A stretch of 64,000 bases of DNA from Brevundimonas guildfordensis (GTDB taxonomy: Bacteria > Pseudomonadota > Alphaproteobacteria > Caulobacterales > Caulobacteraceae), in the NCBI RefSeq assembly GCF_014836405.1, contig NZ_JACSQU010000001.1, positions 1,054,001-1,118,000 of the forward strand, in the 5' to 3' direction. Within the stretch, counting starts at the first letter, position 1, and every line of letters starts with the position of its first letter. Below the pieces are notes generated by a model. The model was not told the DNA's origin, did no database searches, and saw only the letters and a program-made list of their open reading frames with translations. The translations under genes and the position numbers were made by a program. Positions 26,281 to 33,639 of this stretch are shown here, in pieces.

Positions 26281-27026
26281 TACGCTTCACCGCCTTCGGT
26301 CGCTTCCACGGCCGGAGCTTCTTCAGCCGGCGTCGAAGCGGGTTGAGCAGCGGCCGACTTCACGGCGCCCGGGAACGGGGCGTCCGACGGGCGGGCCTTC
26401 TTGATGGCGTCGCTGATCTTGACGTAGGCGCCATCGTGACCCGGGACAGCGCCCTTGATCAGGATCAGGCCACGCTCGGCGTCGACGCGGACGACGGTCA
26501 GGTTCTGGGTGGTGACGACTTCCTGGCCCAGGTGACCGGCCATCTTCTTACCCTTGAAGACGCGACCCGGATCCTGACGCTGGCCGGTCGAACCGTGCGA
26601 GCGGTGCGAAATCGACACGCCGTGCGAAGCACGCAGACCGCCGAAGTTCCAGCGCTTCATGGCGCCCGCAAAGCCCTTACCAATGGTATGGCCCTGGATG
26701 TCGACCTTCTGACCCGCGAGGAAGTGGTCGGCCGACAGTTCGGCGCCCACGTCCAGCAGGGCGTCTTCGCCCACGCGGAACTCGGTCACATAGGCCTTCG
26801 GCTCAACCTCGGCCTTCGCGAAAACTTCGCGTTGAGCCTTGGCCGTGTTCTTGGCCTTCTTAACGCCAGCGCCCAGCTGAAGGGCGACGTAACCGTCGCG
26901 CTCCTTGGTACGTTGGCCGACGACTTGGCAGCCGTCGAGCTGGAGTACAGTGACCGGAACGTGTGCGCCGTCATCGGCGAACACGCGGGTCATCCCCAGC
27001 TTCTTGGCGATCACGCCCGTGCGCAT
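26280..27026 (-). CDS. rplC: 50S ribosomal protein L3
   Basis: Early assembly protein reaching the peptidyl transferase centre. 248 residues, with [12 protein letters not shown] and [20 protein letters not shown]; the glutamine in the second segment is the residue methylated by PrmB in other bacteria. A C-terminal Ala/Pro/Glu-rich tail (about residues 218-248) is an extension beyond the E. coli protein. Confidence 0.97.
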
Positions 27027-27049
27027 GTCGGATCCCGCCTCTTTCTTTC

Positions 27050-27355
<306 letters not shown>

Positions 27356-27939
27356 ATCGGTTGTTATTCCCATGCGGCCGGAGCCGCGTCCCTGTGAACC
27401 ATTTCAAAGACCGAAGCCCCGAGACGAAAACTCGTCCCCAGGAAACGCAAATCCGCAAAAACGAGCGGCCCACGCAGTCCCCCGCGAAGGCCGTAAGTTC
27501 CCAAGAAGCTGCAAAGAACAGTAACTTAGGTCGTTCCTGCGGACCGCGTCTGCACCCGAAAGTGCACAGCCGGTCCAACAAGAGGGGCGCTTATGCCCTC
27601 CGATTCCGTTTCCGTCAAGCGTGGAAATCCCCGCCCCGTCAGCGTTTGCGACTCGCAGGGCCCGCACGCCCCTGCGACGGGGTTCAGCGACATAACACAG
27701 GCCTTTCGTTAGGAACTGAGGCTGGATAACGGCCAGATGAACGCGCCGATAAGGCGCCGCCGCATTGCCTACTGCATGCTGACGCAGTTCTGCCGCAATG
27801 CGTCGCTTTTGGGCAACATTGCCCCTGATGTGACGACGCCATGACATGTTTGTTACGGCAAAGCGCGAAAGTGCGACCTATGTCTTGCGCATCGCCGGGC
27901 GGCTCAGCTTGCTCGGCGGCAGTACATAAGGACAAAAAA
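27356..27939. other. Divergent region between the S10 operon and a porin-like gene
   Basis: 584 bases without a supported gene. The minus-strand side holds a candidate promoter and a structured leader: outer arms GGACC/GGTCC (27541-27545, 27572-27576) enclose TGCAC/GTGCA. The plus-strand side leads to the barrel gene; only its AAGGA ribosome site is clear. The open frames here are shadows with no start context. Confidence 0.5.
27591..27618 (-). promoter_or_regulatory. Candidate S10 operon promoter
   Basis: Minus-strand -35 TTGACG (27613-27618) and -10 GCATAA (27591-27596), 16 bases apart. This would start transcription near 27584, giving a leader of about 230 bases before rpsJ. Fits a housekeeping sigma promoter only moderately at the -10. 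Confidence 0.35.
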
Positions 27940-28698
27940 ATGAAAACCGTCTTTCTCGCTTCGGTCGCCGCCGCGACCCTGATCGCCGCTCCCGCTTTCG
28001 CTCAAGACGCCATCGGCTCGGTCGGCGTCGCTTACAACTACGCCGACGTTGAAGGCGTGGACGTGAACCGCGGCGTCATCGACGGCACCGTCGCCTCGTC
28101 GGTGTTCGGCGACTGGACCGTCACCTTCAACGCTGAAGGCGCCTACACGGACATCGACGGCGCGGGCGACGAAACGACCCTGGCCGGCGCCGTCCACCTG
28201 TCGAAGAAGATCGAAGACATGCGCTTCGGCGGCTTCTACGGCGCTTCGGAACTGGGCGCGACCACGCTGAACACCTTCGGCCTGGAAGCCCAGAAGTACC
28301 TGGACCGCGCCACCCTGACCGGCGTCGTCTCGTACGGCTCGGCTGCTGACGCCGACATCTGGACCGTGGCCGGCGACGCCGCCTTCTACGCCACGCCGCA
28401 ACTGCGCCTGAGCGGCGGCGCCGCCTACACCAACGTCGACGCCGACAACATCTTCGTCGGCGCTGGCGACGTGGACGCCTGGTCGGCTGGCGTGGCGGCT
28501 GAGTATCAGTTCGCTGACTCGCCGTACTCGGTCTTCGGCGGCTACGACTACGTCGAGTCCTCGGACCTGAACATGGACGCCAACGTCTTCACCATCGGCA
28601 TGCGCTACAGCTTCGGCGGCGGTCTGCAAGCTCGCGACCAAGCCGGCGCCAACCTGGGCCGCACGCACAACGGCGTCTCCGCCCTGTTCGGCCGCTAA
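27940..28698 (+). CDS. Outer-membrane beta-barrel protein, porin-like
   Basis: Probable outer-membrane channel or structural barrel; exact role unknown. The 252-residue protein has a signal peptide (residues 1-21, cut after AFAQ), then alternating hydrophobic/polar strands separated by short acidic turns (for example VGVAYNYADVEGVDV and GFYGASELG). It ends close to NGVSALFGR rather than in a classic terminal phenylalanine. The mature protein is strongly acidic. ATG 27940 sits after AAGGA and begins the signal peptide. Codon use is strongly biased (GGC, GCC, GAC, TCG), suggesting high expression. Monocistronic with a strong terminator. Confidence 0.75.
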   Translation: MKTVFLASVAAATLIAAPAFAQDAIGSVGVAYNYADVEGVDVNRGVIDGTVASSVFGDWTVTFNAEGAYTDIDGAGDETTLAGAVHLSKKIEDMRFGGFYGASELGATTLNTFGLEAQKYLDRATLTGVVSYGSAADADIWTVAGDAAFYATPQLRLSGGAAYTNVDADNIFVGAGDVDAWSAGVAAEYQFADSPYSVFGGYDYVESSDLNMDANVFTIGMRYSFGGGLQARDQAGANLGRTHNGVSALFGR

Positions 28699-28736
28699 GC
28701 AGTCTGTGCGGCCTGCAAGGGCCGCTCGGAAACAGG

Positions 28737-28770
28737 AAACCCCGGCGGATCGCTCCGCCGGGGTTTTTTG
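28737..28770 (+). terminator. Terminator of the porin-like gene
   Basis: Perfect 9-bp GC stem (28740-28748 and 28755-28763) followed by six Ts. The loop is ATCGCT, the same hexamer (or its complement) found in several other terminators of this window. Confidence 0.92.
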
Positions 28771-28858
28771 TTTGCCGCCGTCCGCGCAACGGCAGGCGTG
28801 AAAAAGGCCCGGAGGGTTCCACGCTTCCGGGCCCTTTCTTCAGAGGCTTCGTGCGGCG

Positions 28859-29755
28859 TCAGCGGCCGATACGAAGATCCCCCGATCCGACGATCGAGCG
28901 CGACACCCGACCGGTAGCTTCAGCCACCCGCACATCGCCCGACCCGGCGATCGACGCCGACACGTCGCCAGCCTCTCCTTCAAAGCGCACGTCGCCGGAC
29001 CCGCCGATCGAGACCCTCAGCACCGGTGCGTGGCCGCCGCGGACGCGCACGCCGCCAGAGCCGCCGATCGCGATGGCCGTCTCGCCATCCACTCGGGCGA
29101 CATCTACGCTGCCCGAGCCGCCGACGCTGGCGTCCAGCGTCCCAGTGGCGCCTGCGAACACCGAACCAGAGCCGCCGACTGCAGCTTCCAGATTGCGCGA
29201 CGTGCCTGCGCGGATGCTGCCCGAACCGCCGACCGACAGCTCCACATCTCCATCCACGTTGGCCACCGTCCAAGAACCGCAGCCGCCAGAACCGAGGTCT
29301 ACCGAGCGAGCGCCGCGGCCGACGGCGCCGAACACGGCCCCACCCCCATTGACGTCAACGTCTCTGGGGGTCCGCAGCACGATCAGCGGCGCATCTTCCA
29401 TGCGGATCCGCCCCTTGCCCCGAACCTCGACCGTTGCGCCTTCGCCCGGTTGGCGCGCATCAGCCGGTCCGCTGTTGCATGAGCCTATCGGTCCGCCGTT
29501 GAAGCTCATGCCCCGCCCGCGGCCCAGGCCGCCGTCTATGCGCACCTGGCCCCCTCGGCGCTCGAGGCGCAGTTCCGGCAGGTCCGCCGAGCCTTGCGTG
29601 ATCTCGACACCCACATCTGCGCGGTCTTCAGGAATCACGATCACGCGCGCCACCGCATTGCGGATGGTCACTTCAGCGGCGAATGCGGGCGCCGCAAGCA
29701 CGGCGGATACAGCCAGCGCGGATCCCAAGGCGGCGGCGATAGCGGCGGGTTTCAT
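28859..29755 (-). CDS. Exported repeat protein, GIN/DUF2807-like
   Basis: Exported protein of unknown role resembling the head GIN domain of auto-transporter-adhesin-like proteins. The 298-residue product has a signal peptide (about residues 1-25, after AFAA). The C-terminal half consists of seven units of roughly 20 residues built on S(V/I)GGSGS/D(V/I), for example DASVGGSGSVDVARVDGE, consistent with a repeating beta-structure such as a beta-helix. Two cysteines (GSCNS, GGCGS) may pair. ATG 29755 follows GGGAGA and begins the signal peptide. The repeats also create a long but spurious open frame on the other strand. Confidence 0.7.
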   Translation of the reverse strand: MKPAAIAAALGSALAVSAVLAAPAFAAEVTIRNAVARVIVIPEDRADVGVEITQGSADLPELRLERRGGQVRIDGGLGRGRGMSFNGGPIGSCNSGPADARQPGEGATVEVRGKGRIRMEDAPLIVLRTPRDVDVNGGGAVFGAVGRGARSVDLGSGGCGSWTVANVDGDVELSVGGSGSIRAGTSRNLEAAVGGSGSVFAGATGTLDASVGGSGSVDVARVDGETAIAIGGSGGVRVRGGHAPVLRVSIGGSGDVRFEGEAGDVSASIAGSGDVRVAEATGRVSRSIVGSGDLRIGR

Positions 29756-29841
29756 CAGCGAGCTCTCCCTGTCTCTGTGTCCAGACAAGACTGAGGTCCC
29801 CGCACCGCAAAGTCAGTTTAAATCGAGGTCATGAACCCCTT

Positions 29842-30774
29842 TTAACCTTGGCCTCCCGCCGCCTCGGCGTTCAGTCGACCGGCGCCGTCCACGGCGCCCG
29901 CCTCTGGCACGAAGTCGCGCTCGAAGTCCTCCAGGCGGCTCTTGAGAGCGCCCGTCTTCTTCAGCAACACCGACGCCGCCCAGCGCGCGGCCAGTTCAGG
30001 CGTTCCCATCTGATCGGTCGAACGGGGCGCCCCTCCCCGGCTTCGCAGCACGGCGTTGGTGTAGAGGGCGCCTCGTCTCAGGCGCGAGCTCCAGGTCTGG
30101 AAATCGACCGACAGGGAGACGCAGAACCGGTCCAGATTCTCCACCCGATGCGGCGCAAAGAAGGGCCAGGTCAAAGCCTGACCAGGCTCCAGGTCGATCG
30201 CTCGAGCGTCCTGCTCAAACGCGCGGACATAGGGAATCTCCTCGGTCGTCTGCCGCGCAATCACCTGCTCCATGCTGTGCTCGGACAGATGCGCCTCATC
30301 GCCGGGAAAGACGAACAGCCGCTTGCGGCCGCGCATGTGGAACAGGATCACCCCGGACGCGTCGAAGTGATAGGGCACCCGCGCCTTCGGCGACGACAGG
30401 ATCAGCTGGCCGTTGCGACTGACCGCCTTCAGGCCCGGATAGGCGTCGCCCATGATCCGGTCGAACTCAGCCATGGTCGCCTGCCACAGCTCGGGCCAGC
30501 CGCGCTCGACATCGCGCATATTGACCCACAATCGGCCCTGCTGGATCGCTTCCAGAAGCTCGGCGCCGTTCAGCCGCCCGCGCGCGCCGGTGCGCAGGCT
30601 GACCTGTCCCTCGTCGTCGTAGTCATACAGGTTGATGTCGAACAGGTCGGCCGGATAGCGGTCCAGGACCTCGGCCAGCGCCTGATCCTCGGCGAAGCCG
30701 CTGGCGACCAGGCTGTGAGGATGCACCTCGGCCTGGCTGATCGGGCCCGCATAGCGCGTCATGGCATTCGTCAT
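29842..30774 (-). CDS. JmjC/cupin-like putative 2-oxoglutarate oxygenase
   Basis: Resembles bacterial cupin-like (JmjC-type) proteins. A candidate Fe(II) site is present: HFD at about residues 136-138 and H209 in FAPHRVEN, the HxD...H order of 2-oxoglutarate oxygenases, with FHMRGRKRLFVFPGDE between them. 310 residues, no signal peptide, so cytoplasmic. Start at ATG 30774 after AGGGAA; a second ATG four codons later is possible. It follows the FemAB-like gene by 39 bases on the same strand, and the two are likely cotranscribed. The substrate, perhaps a protein or a peptide/lipid made by its partner, is unknown. Confidence 0.65.
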   Translation of the reverse strand: MTNAMTRYAGPISQAEVHPHSLVASGFAEDQALAEVLDRYPADLFDINLYDYDDEGQVSLRTGARGRLNGAELLEAIQQGRLWVNMRDVERGWPELWQATMAEFDRIMGDAYPGLKAVSRNGQLILSSPKARVPYHFDASGVILFHMRGRKRLFVFPGDEAHLSEHSMEQVIARQTTEEIPYVRAFEQDARAIDLEPGQALTWPFFAPHRVENLDRFCVSLSVDFQTWSSRLRRGALYTNAVLRSRGGAPRSTDQMGTPELAARWAASVLLKKTGALKSRLEDFERDFVPEAGAVDGAGRLNAEAAGGQG

Positions 30775-30813
30775 CGCGTTTCCCTGCTTCAGCGGCCGTG
30801 ACGGCCGCCCTTT

Positions 30814-31947
30814 CTATTTCCGCACCATGTCCACGGCGGCGCGCAGCGCTCCCGAGGTTCGACCCGTCCAACTCGTCTCGCACGCCTCGATCACGGACCA
30901 GCGACGCTGGGTGCTTGTCCGCAACCGCCGGGCCCGCTCGCGCCCCACCAGGCCGACGACGGCGCTCGCCGAGTCGCAAAGCGCCTTGGTTAAGCCAGGT
31001 CGGGCCACGAGGCCTTCAACAGTCACAAGACCCCCGTCATCGTAATACTTCTTGTAATTGCCGCCTACGCCTACGCCGTAGTCAAAGACACGGTAGCCGC
31101 GCCCGGCCCCCAAACGGATGGTCTCCTGCGTCAGGACTATGCCCGGAGACCAGCGCGCCACCTCCTGCGCATAGACGGGGAACCACAGGTGGAAATGACG
31201 CCCCGCGTGCATCGAATACTCCATCGCCACCACGCGCCCGTCGACCCGCAGCACCGCCATCGAGGCGCCGAAGCCGTCTTCGCCTTCGCTGTCCATCAGA
31301 GCGTGCAGCACCTGGCCCGTCCAACCGCAGGAGAAAATGTCATGATGGCCGGTTCGGCGATACTGCTCGCTCTTCTCGATGATCAGGCGCTCCAGCAGGG
31401 CGTGATCCCGCAGGCAGATTTCGATCTCGACCGTCCCGAAGGCCCCGTCCAGCCCTCGACGCGAACGTTCCTTGTCCTTGAAGTACTTCGGAAAGGCCTT
31501 CCTGCGCCGCGCGTACCAGGCGTCAAAGCCGCCGTCGTCGGGCACGATCGACACCACGCTGGAGTAGCGCGGCATCTCTGCAGGGGCCTCGCCGATCCAG
31601 GCCGCCGCCGCGAACCTCGGTGCTCGAAGCAGGCGCGCGGCTTCCTGCATCGACGGCTTCAGGTCGCGAGGGCCGATAACTCCGTGATAGTCGTTCATTG
31701 GCGCGGCCAGCGGCTGGATCGTCCCGCCCCGACGCTGATGCGGATAATAGCCGACCACGCGACCGTCCCGTTTGAAGACAGCGACAGCCGACCCAGGACA
31801 GATGGGGCCCGCCGTCCGGGCGAACTCCCAGCGAAAATAGGGGCTGCTCAGGTCGGGATCCGCGCGCGCCCAGTCATTCCACTGCGCGCCCTCACCAGCC
31901 GACAGCTCAGCCACGCTACGAATTTCGACTGATAGTGGTCCCGACAT
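30814..31947 (-). CDS. FemAB/GNAT-like acyltransferase
   Basis: Predicted acyl- or aminoacyl-transferase of the GNAT superfamily, in the FemAB/CelD-like branch. The 377-residue protein has an N-terminal half with YFRWEFARTAG and an Arg/Lys-rich central segment, then a C-terminal acetyltransferase-like core (about 180-330: GASMAVLRVDGRVVAMEYSMHAGRHFHLWFPVY and a DYGVGVGGNYKKYYDDGG end). These proteins typically transfer acyl or aminoacyl groups in capsule, polysaccharide or peptidoglycan pathways, but nothing here identifies the substrate. ATG 31947 follows GGAAGGGAG; the longer upstream start is not favoured. First gene of a two-gene unit with the cupin-like protein. Confidence 0.65.
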   Translation of the reverse strand: MSGPLSVEIRSVAELSAGEGAQWNDWARADPDLSSPYFRWEFARTAGPICPGSAVAVFKRDGRVVGYYPHQRRGGTIQPLAAPMNDYHGVIGPRDLKPSMQEAARLLRAPRFAAAAWIGEAPAEMPRYSSVVSIVPDDGGFDAWYARRRKAFPKYFKDKERSRRGLDGAFGTVEIEICLRDHALLERLIIEKSEQYRRTGHHDIFSCGWTGQVLHALMDSEGEDGFGASMAVLRVDGRVVAMEYSMHAGRHFHLWFPVYAQEVARWSPGIVLTQETIRLGAGRGYRVFDYGVGVGGNYKKYYDDGGLVTVEGLVARPGLTKALCDSASAVVGLVGRERARRLRTSTQRRWSVIEACETSWTGRTSGALRAAVDMVRK

Positions 31948-32096
31948 GACGCTCCCTTCCGGAACAAGCACAGCAAGTCCCGTTCCAAGCCTGGCTGATA
32001 CGTCCAAGCTCTTGAGGCCGGGTTAGCATCCGGCGGACAGCATCAAGGAACGGAGCCTCTTGTCCGCCCCCGCATTGTCTTGGGCAGGAGGTACCC

Positions 32097-32261
32097 ATGA
32101 CAACGCCCCGCCCCAAGACCCGAGAAACCGAGAACGAAGACCTGCGACCCGACACGGCCGGCCATCCGCCCCGCCCTGCCACAGAGCCGCGAGGCGCCGA
32201 GGGCAGCAGCAACTCTGGCCGCACCGAAACCGACCCGGCCACCGGCGAACCGAACGACTGA
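32097..32261 (+). CDS. Small hydrophilic protein, 54 residues
   Basis: Unrecognised. The ATG at 32097 is preceded by a perfect AGGAGG six bases upstream, much stronger than average here. The product is Pro/Thr/Glu/Arg-rich with no hydrophobic core, starts MTTPRPKTRETENEDLR and ends TGEPND, and is probably disordered. It is divergent from the FemAB-like gene, 149 bases apart. No frame as short as this can be certain without conservation, but the start signal and the clean stop support a real gene. Confidence 0.55.
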   Translation: MTTPRPKTRETENEDLRPDTAGHPPRPATEPRGAEGSSNSGRTETDPATGEPND

Positions 32262-32264
32262 CAG

Positions 32265-32300
32265 CAAAACGGCCCCCAGATCGCTCCGGGGGCCGCTCTG
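32265..32300 (-). terminator. Terminator downstream of tuf
   Basis: GGCCCCC/GGGGGCC stem (32271-32277 and 32288-32294) with loop containing AGCGAT in the minus sense, followed on the minus strand by GTTTTGC. It lies about 150 bases past the tuf stop and also just after the small plus-strand gene. Confidence 0.6.
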
Positions 32301-32319
32301 TTACGCTTTACGCTTGGCC

Positions 32320-32390
32320 TAACGCCCTTGCGGGCTGCTTGAGGCCATTACTGCGGCCTGCCGCCCTTTCGGGCTGCGTGAGGCCGGTAC
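32320..32390. repeat. Short hairpin direct repeat in the tuf 3' region
   Basis: Two near-identical units, GCCCTTGCGGGCTGCTTGAG and GCCCTTTCGGGCTGCGTGAG, about 40 bases apart. Each contains a GCCC..GGGC hairpin. Function unknown; together with a CTGGCGAACCAG hairpin at 32403 they form a structured 3' untranslated region. Confidence 0.5.
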
Positions 32391-32402
32391 GCTTACTCGT
32401 TA

Positions 32403-32414
32403 CTGGCGAACCAG
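32403..32414 (-). other. Post-stop hairpin of tuf, shared with rplL
   Basis: CTGGCGAACCAG, read on the minus strand as a CTGG/CCAG stem with a TTCG loop, about 35 bases after the tuf stop. The identical 12-mer lies just after rplL (51853-51864). Confidence 0.45.
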
Positions 32415-32448
32415 CGAGGGCCGAAGCCCCCGCCCATTCTGACGTCGA

Positions 32449-33639
32449 TTACTCGACGATCTTGGCCACGACGCCGGCGCCGACGGTGCGGCCGCCTTCA
32501 CGGATGGCGAAGCGCAGCTTCTCTTCCATCGCGATCGGCGTGATCAGCTCGACGTCCAGCTCGGCGTTGTCGCCCGGCATGATCATTTCCACGCCTTCCT
32601 TCAGGTGCACGATGCCGGTCACGTCGGTCGTGCGGAAGTAGAACTGCGGACGGTAGTTCGTGAAGAACGGCGTGTGACGGCCGCCTTCTTCCTTGTTCAG
32701 GATGTAGGCTTCAGCCACGAACTTGGTGTGCGGGGTGATCGAACCCGGCTTGCACAGCACCTGGCCGCGCTCGACGTCTTCACGCTTGGTGCCGCGCAGC
32801 AGCACGCCCACGTTGTCGCCGGCTTGACCCTGGTCCAGCAGCTTGCGGAACATTTCAACGCCCGTGCAGGTCGTCTTCTGAACCGGACGGATGCCGACGA
32901 TTTCGACTTCTTCACCGACCTTGACGATGCCGCGCTCGACGCGACCCGTCACCACGGTGCCGCGGCCCGAGATCGAGAACACGTCTTCGACCGGCATCAG
33001 GAACGGCATGTCGATCGGGCGTTCCGGTTGCGGGATGTAGGCGTCGACCGCCGCCATCAGCTCTAGGATGCGCTCTTCGCCGATGTGGGCGTCGCGGTCT
33101 TCGACGGCGGCCAGGGCCGAGCCCTTGACGACCGGGATGTCGTCGCCCGGGAACTGGTACGAGCTGAGCAGCTCGCGCACTTCCATTTCGACCAGCTCCA
33201 GCAGTTCCTCGTCGTCGACCATGTCGACCTTGTTCAGGAACACCACCAGGGCCGGAACGCCGACCTGACGCGACAGCAGGATGTGCTCGCGGGTCTGCGG
33301 CATCGGGCCGTCAGCGGCCGAGCACACCAGGATCGCGCCGTCCATCTGAGCGGCGCCCGTGATCATGTTCTTCACGTAGTCGGCGTGGCCCGGGCAGTCC
33401 ACGTGCGCGTAGTGACGGTTGGCCGTCTCATATTCCACGTGCGACGTGTTGATGGTGATGCCGCGCGCTTTTTCTTCCGGCGCGTTGTCGATGTCGGCGT
33501 AGTTCATCGCCTTGTTGCCGCCGGCCTTCGCCAGCGTCATCGAGATCGCCGCCGTCAGCGTCGTCTTGCCGTGGTCAACGTGGCCGATCGTGCCGATGTT
33601 CACGTGCGGCTTATTACGTTCGAACTTTTCCTTGGCCAT
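32449..33639 (-). CDS. tuf: Elongation factor Tu
   Basis: GTPase that delivers aminoacyl-tRNA to the ribosome. The 396-residue protein has P-loop GHVDHGKT (about 19-26), DCPGH (about 81-85) and NKVD (about 136-139), then two beta-barrel domains. Standard length and a strong AGGAG. Last gene of the str operon, 111 bases after fusA; that spacer can fold into GGGGCG...CGCCCC and CCCCAAA...TTTGGGG stems. Only one tuf copy lies in this window; a second elsewhere is common in proteobacteria. Confidence 0.98.

Follow-up and report, generated by a model that had tools for sequence, protein, structure and literature searches.

Few known biological glues are as strong as the holdfast. In Caulobacter crescentus it is abolished by the triple deletion hfsK cc2278 cc1244 (PMC5362036). 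According to the excerpted text of the same report, CC2278 and CC1244 are paralogues of the acyltransferase HfsK; deletion of cc1244 alone has no obvious phenotype, and the gene contributes to the holdfast in multiple mutants. CC1244 was a capture hit with c-di-GMP, CC2278 was not captured, and the exact role of HfsK was called unclear by its discoverers (PMC5362036). The gene of one paralogue, cc2278 (CCNA_02361), shares an operon with an adjoining holdfast glycosyltransferase gene, hfsL (CCNA_02360), as given in passages of three papers (PMC5362036, PMC6372794, PMC8545394). In Hirschia baltica the holdfast does not require hfsK or either of its paralogues, and one paralogue, hbal_1184, seems to serve another polysaccharide pathway (PMC8449245).

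The window analysed here, 64,000 nucleotides of Brevundimonas guildfordensis, holds a gene of this family directly followed by a gene for a cupin/JmjC-like protein. HfsK-type acyltransferases are already known; a probable oxygenase partner that accompanies them in two paralogous settings did not turn up in the open-licence PMC papers searched. The source genome measures 2.88 Mb. Judged by the cupin (96-97% identity), its nearest named relatives are B. diminuta 470-4 and B. naejangsanensis.

The two genes and their surroundings

The features of the locus are the following.

32265..32300, minus strand: strong stem-loop followed by a T run, lying between the pair and tuf and probably the terminator of tuf
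32074..32103, minus strand: weak promoter-like match upstream of the pair (pattern scan: 1 in 29600-32700 versus 0.2 expected)
31947..30814, minus strand: predicted FemAB/GNAT (Acetyltransf_6) acyltransferase, HfsK family, CC1244-type; ATG start, 377 aa
30775..30813, minus strand: intergenic gap between the FemAB gene and the cupin gene, 39 bases
30774..29842, minus strand: JmjC-fold ("Cupin_8") probable 2-oxoglutarate oxygenase; ATG start, 310 aa; candidate metal triad H136/D138/H209, candidate 2-oxoglutarate lysine K151
28859..29788, minus strand: head-GIN/DUF2807 gene, 3' of the cupin gene at a distance of 53 bases, given a start at 29788, which is uncertain

The pair had been described as two genes on the same strand 39 bases apart, and so it is: both reading frames run on the minus strand and the gap spans 30775-30813. 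It sits between tuf and the S10 ribosomal operon. The stem-loop near tuf was chosen by eye and is absent from the output of the pattern scan; the 45-base stretch around it (32258-32302) folds at -32 kcal/mol with a z of -6.3. A stem-loop of this strength after tuf means that the pair is probably transcribed separately from tuf. The promoter-like match is no evidence of function. Rfam matched nothing over 27000-33000, and NCBIfam matched nothing in either of the two window proteins.

The surroundings are conserved to different degrees. At Brevundimonas-type loci a head-GIN (DUF2807) gene lies 3' of the pair in 72 of the 72 loci from genome contigs; where there is enough sequence, rpsJ is found downstream in 59 of 59 and tuf upstream in 27 of 45. 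At the rpsJ-side loci the unit may include the DUF2807 gene as a third member. This gene also remains beside FemAB at three loci that lack the cupin (L163, L164, L167). The L163 gene has the same length, 840 bases, as C. crescentus CCNA_01303, whose transcript co-purified with the sRNA GsrN.

The first protein of the pair matches Pfam Acetyltransf_6 (PF13480) with E 2.3e-29 (102.9 bits) and has a C-terminal extension with helices 317-376 past this domain. The same build, Acetyltransf_6 plus a C-terminal extension with conserved arginines, was described for HfsK, CC2278 and CC1244 in the pertinent part of Sprecher et al. 2017 (PMC5362036). By its sequence, the window acyltransferase is assigned to the HfsK family of holdfast modifiers. 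In the FemAB tree, which left out 11 distant FemABs and one duplicate reading frame, the window-type proteins and six solo genes form one group (100/100) and the hfsL-type proteins another (97/86). Four of the six solo genes (L132, L163, L164, L167), all from other Caulobacteraceae and without a cupin, lie just before rpsJ. The ribosomal operon of C. crescentus is given as CC_1245-CC_1273 in an excerpt of PMC13001252; as CC1244 is an HfsK paralogue and this operon starts at CC_1245, the window gene occupies the place of CC1244. Tree and position together make it the likely orthologue of CC1244.

The arginines RR348-349 occur in 110 of 110 aligned FemAB rows. We dropped them as a c-di-GMP signature, since the cc2278-type group shows the same invariance and its member in C. 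crescentus escaped c-di-GMP capture. The FemAB model has a pLDDT of 89.3, and its best folds include MprF/LPG-synthase-type domains, FemX and two aminoacyl-tRNA-dependent synthases of the streptothricin pathway. The FemX-like entries 7z6a, 1xe4 and 1ne9 were matched with E 1.2e-8 to 1.6e-8 and TM 0.50-0.57; a profile sequence search of the PDB with the same protein gave no match.

The cupin is a member of Pfam Cupin_8 (E 2.5e-7, 31.3 bits, cut-off 27.4); its score against JmjC_2 (PF08007) is 20.4 bits, under the curated cut-off of 22. An AlphaFold2 model built on a 20-row alignment has a pLDDT of 91.7 and adopts the beta-helix JmjC fold. YxbC, FIH, YcfD, NO66, JMJD5 and TYW5 rank high in Foldseek and VIA, the best VIA match being to 4nub (Z 16.1, 181 residues, 3.5 A). 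A profile sequence search of the PDB yielded nothing below E 0.1; TYW5 came closest with E 0.14.

The HxD motif at 136-138 and the histidine at 209 lie where the original prediction had put them, and they are conserved. H136, D138 and K151 are each present in 110 of 110 aligned cupin rows and H209 in 109, rows that are partly non-independent because some places enter twice, e.g., L030 and L128. The one exception is a gap in an hfsL-type row, evidently L120, whose reading-frame match ends at query residue 157. The set came from 131 regions, 130 of them with a cupin, after removal of 20 repeats or partial sequences by hand. Alignment A1, which has 20 rows, shows each of the four residues in 20 of 20. 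The motif reads H136-F-D138, and K151 follows 13 residues past the aspartate. We take K151 to be the 2-oxoglutarate lysine by analogy with K214 of FIH, which likewise lies 13 residues past its aspartate. With a modelled JmjC fold and a conserved triad, the idea of a 2-oxoglutarate oxygenase gains support, and the cupin is a probable Fe(II)/2-oxoglutarate oxygenase of the JmjC type.

FemAB diverges faster than the cupin. Over 65 loci the median identity to the window proteins is 50% for FemAB and 74% for the cupin, with FemAB the lower in 60. The reverse is seen at five loci of B. diminuta and its kin (L042-L045, L047), where FemAB reaches 82-89% and the cupin 78-81%; it looks as if FemAB alleles had been exchanged there and the cupin retained.

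Distribution of the pair and of the holdfast genes

A cupin of this family is found in 86 of 149 Caulobacteraceae genomes, and all 86 also have a FemAB match; FemAB alone occurs in 17. The co-occurrence across genomes that had been proposed as a check is thereby borne out. Families that do not co-occur and metal residues that vary had been named as signs against the pair; the families do co-occur and the residues are conserved. Among the 149 genomes, 41 of 41 window-type cupins (at least 44% identity) have a FemAB match on the same strand, 39-212 bases upstream. Both genes are present in 71 of the 72 loci from genome contigs, and the 72nd (L111) begins inside the cupin at the end of its contig. 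Together with 67 cupins of other types, the 41 make up the 108 cupin places used out of 113; the five not used are an additional fragment in G013 and four matches of low strength (E 1.9e-4 to 9.1e-4).

The other-type cupins are more varied. At least 36 of 67 have a FemAB within 3 kb among the matches listed. Of the remaining 31, 20 were inspected: 12 have a FemAB adjacent or across a GT2 gene and 8 do not. One further case, in G109 (L117), is FemAB-positive and brings the number added by inspection to 13. The FemAB-less cases include L175, with GT2 and cupin only, and L187, a weak relative. The usual order of this second type is FemAB - GT2 - cupin; L171, a Brevundimonas locus, has the second-type FemAB and cupin without the GT2. 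In the cupin tree three groups emerge, the window-type (100/99), the hfsL-type (99/99) and an orphan group (98/96). Window-type and hfsL-type proteins thus split in parallel in the cupin tree and in the FemAB tree. The pairing is more than chance neighbourhood. A single gene of 702 aa that fuses FemAB and cupin (L104:4807-6915) was given no weight, because its metagenome-assembled source is full of N and the sequence is garbled near the end of FemAB; the fusion is probably a sequence error.

The orphan cupins without FemAB number at least six (L169, L172, L173, L179, L185, L188). No neighbour is common to more than two of their loci.

HfsL-type GT2 genes occur in 25 of 26 genomes of the genus; in the window genome the gene is about 0.7 Mb away from the pair. 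In C. crescentus the cupin of the hfsL operon would, by gene order, be CC_2276/CCNA_02359. Two hfsL-type cupins were tested against Pfam: L165 gave nothing at E 0.01, and L114 gave only an unrelated match at E 0.13. The original prediction saw no known pathway around either gene and ranked the pair among the least explained of the window. This finds no support: the FemAB protein belongs by sequence to the HfsK family, and a paralogue of the cupin is encoded beside an hfsL-type gene.

In a sample of the alphaproteobacterial class the cupin is found in 13 of 289 genomes (E <= 1e-10), three of which belong to the window's own genus. Seven of the ten others have a FemAB-family gene adjacent or one gene off, identified by profile and PF13480 match in L149, L152 and L156 and by profile alone (E 1.5e-6 or better) in L150, L153, L154 and L155. 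The longest reading frames of the pair overlap by 4 bases in L149, L150, L152 and L156; the gene caller had been trained on seven window genes, and plain reading frames were used for the AT-richer loci. L149 lies in a cluster with genes for a Wzx flippase, a Wzy polymerase, a Wzz chain-length protein, Wza export, a glycosyltransferase and a deacetylase. L152 has GT2 and Wzy genes near the pair, L153 has a flippase gene between FemAB and cupin, and the gene lists of L155 and L156 contain no glycan cluster. The three genomes without a neighbouring FemAB are L151 (on a 7.7-kb contig), L157 and L158. In L157 (9032-10909), judging from sequence, two tandem distant cupins stand beside large polyketide/non-ribosomal-like genes, without FemAB.

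The holdfast anchor gene product HfaA (NF037934) served for comparison. It is found in 104 of the 149 genomes, 103 over the cut-off and G002 below it. If every match to the HfsK family is counted and not just those of the CC1244 type, 101 genomes have both, 43 neither and 5 are discordant (100, 43 and 6 with the strict cut-off), though these agreements are not independent events, as relatives share losses. In this order the dimorphic life cycle has been lost convergently, as described in an excerpt of PMC12700997. The discordant genomes are G013 and G083, with cupin and FemAB and without HfaA, and G020, G062 and G069, with HfaA and without FemAB or cupin. Flagellin is present in 132 of 149; FemAB and HfaA are both missing from 27 of the genomes with flagellin and both present in one without it. 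The HfsK family tracks HfaA, not flagellin. Within genera, FemAB and HfaA are both present or both absent in 7 and 16 genomes of g6, 20 and 2 of g22, and 2 and 14 of g21; g20 fits less well, with both in 2, neither in 1 and HfaA only in 3. The cupin is missing in 20 of the 104 HfaA-positive genomes and is hence not required for the holdfast.

The window genome itself encodes hfaABD, each of which scores above its cut-off. It also has an hfs-like locus that comprises Wza-type export, a GT2 of the HfsL type, an HfsG-like GT2 (432 bits, below the cut-off of 500), a flippase and a sugar transferase. A FemAB profile search found the family in 58 of 61 genus genomes, among them 50 of 50 good ones. 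It returned one copy in the window genome, where 31 of 53 first-look candidates were scored; a single-protein search, with 7 of 7 scored, also gave one match. Two more Acetyltransf_6 proteins of this genome fall outside the HfsK profile. The pair thus comprises the only members of both families that the searches found in this holdfast-coding genome.

Proposed function and its alternatives

We consider it reasonably probable that the two enzymes form a conserved module, one acylating and the other hydroxylating precursors of the holdfast or a related exopolysaccharide. What speaks for it is the modelled fold with its conserved active-site residues, the pairing, the existence of two paralogous copies of which one surrounds an hfsL-type gene, the exopolysaccharide clusters around some distant pairs, and the shared distribution of the HfsK family and HfaA. 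Against it stand the silent cc1244 deletion, the dispensable hfsK paralogues of Hirschia, the 20 HfaA-positive genomes without a cupin, and the cupins and FemAB genes that occur singly. The FemAB protein would act as an N-acyltransferase on a cytoplasmic, lipid-linked precursor of such a polysaccharide and would transfer an acyl or aminoacyl group to it. The acceptor may be an amine that a deacetylase, for instance HfsH, has exposed. The cupin would then hydroxylate the same product, either at the newly added group or at a neighbouring sugar. From neighbours and distribution we infer a polysaccharide precursor; the action on one shared molecule, the substrate itself, the order of steps and the chemistry are inferences too. 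The original prediction had the two enzymes modify one peptide, lipid or surface component; the joint modification of a surface component is largely borne out, the evidence leans to a polysaccharide, and lipid and peptide found no support. A more specific version, which is speculative and rather unlikely to be right in full, has FemAB add a tRNA-borne amino acid to an amino sugar in the repeat unit of holdfast or exopolysaccharide and the JmjC enzyme hydroxylate that amino acid, so that the glue is crosslinked or hardened. It derives from the fold neighbours: side-chain hydroxylases for the cupin, tRNA-dependent aminoacyl transferases for FemAB.

The pair might instead modify an envelope polysaccharide other than the holdfast, i.e., a capsule, an O-antigen or a further exopolysaccharide, and be linked to the holdfast by paralogy only. 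We rate this as a minor possibility, yet one of some weight. Some distant pairs lie in exopolysaccharide clusters of bacteria from other families, G083 retains the pair without HfaA, the cc1244 deletion alone is silent (PMC5362036, in excerpt), and the Hirschia paralogue hbal_1184 appears to act elsewhere (PMC8449245, in excerpt). However, the HfsK family and HfaA are concordant in 144 of 149 genomes, among them the 27 flagellated ones with neither, the window genome has holdfast genes and no second HfsK-profile match, and cc1244 does contribute to the holdfast in multiple mutants (PMC5362036, in excerpt). It is also conceivable, if improbable, that the two enzymes share a pathway and not a substrate, FemAB acylating a glycan and the cupin hydroxylating a surface or anchor protein. 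FIH, JMJD5, YcfD and YxbC, all fold neighbours of the cupin, are known or putative hydroxylases of amino-acid side chains, and an envelope protein could be hydroxylated before export. But no candidate protein substrate was noticed as a constant neighbour of the pairs, glycan genes are what is conserved around them in the distant clusters scanned, and the GIN protein is a neighbour only at rpsJ-side loci.

The position at the S10 operon would be explained if the targets of the pair were ribosomal proteins, with the cupin serving as ribosomal oxygenase and the GNAT protein as ribosomal acetyltransferase. The constancy of rpsJ downstream (59 of 59 Brevundimonas-type loci with enough sequence) agrees with this, as does the presence of the ribosomal oxygenases YcfD and NO66 among the closest folds. 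The cupin, however, stays below the JmjC_2 cut-off, and another gene of the window genome is a far better match. Moreover, tuf is upstream in only 27 of 45 loci and separated from the pair by the strong stem-loop, no rpsJ appears on the retrieved stretches around the window-type pairs L126, L127 and L129 or, according to the gene lists, around hfsL cassettes or distant pairs, and the presence of the HfsK family tracks HfaA. We reject the ribosomal explanation as very improbable, on the grounds of the JmjC_2 score, the rpsJ-less loci, the tuf counts, the better JmjC_2 gene and the stem-loop. That better match, L198:5541-6674 (377 aa, 87.1 bits), is a separate JmjC_2 protein and a candidate for the true ribosomal oxygenase.

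Comparison with known systems

A dedicated oxygenase partner of the cc1244-type and cc2278-type acyltransferases would be a concrete missing step in the chemistry of holdfast cohesion, and the finding points to an overlooked gene beside hfsL. We found no mention of the partner in the main texts of the open-licence PMC papers searched; as to the gene next to hfsL, the two main papers have neither its likely locus tag nor the words cupin, oxygenase or hydroxylase in their main texts.

In the excerpted publication the acyltransferases HfsK, CC2278 and CC1244 are treated without an oxygenase, whereas the window gene is paired with one (PMC5362036). The closest arrangement is the hfsL operon (cc2278 - hfsL - next gene): loci matching it carry a paralogous FemAB and a paralogous cupin. 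They have a glycosyltransferase gene between the two, whereas the window pair has no such gene between. FemX and its tRNA-dependent relatives resemble the window FemAB model in fold, yet Pfam FemAB (PF02388) gave nothing at E <= 10 with the window protein. The JmjC superfamily is best known from proteins and tRNA, and would, if the proposed function is true, extend into glycan modification. YcfD/RoxA, NO66, JMJD5, FIH, TYW5 and YxbC share with the window cupin the JmjC fold, the HxD...H triad and a lysine 13 residues past the aspartate, at an identity of 10-19% among the matches listed. Unlike them, the window cupin family has a context of glycan genes at several loci.
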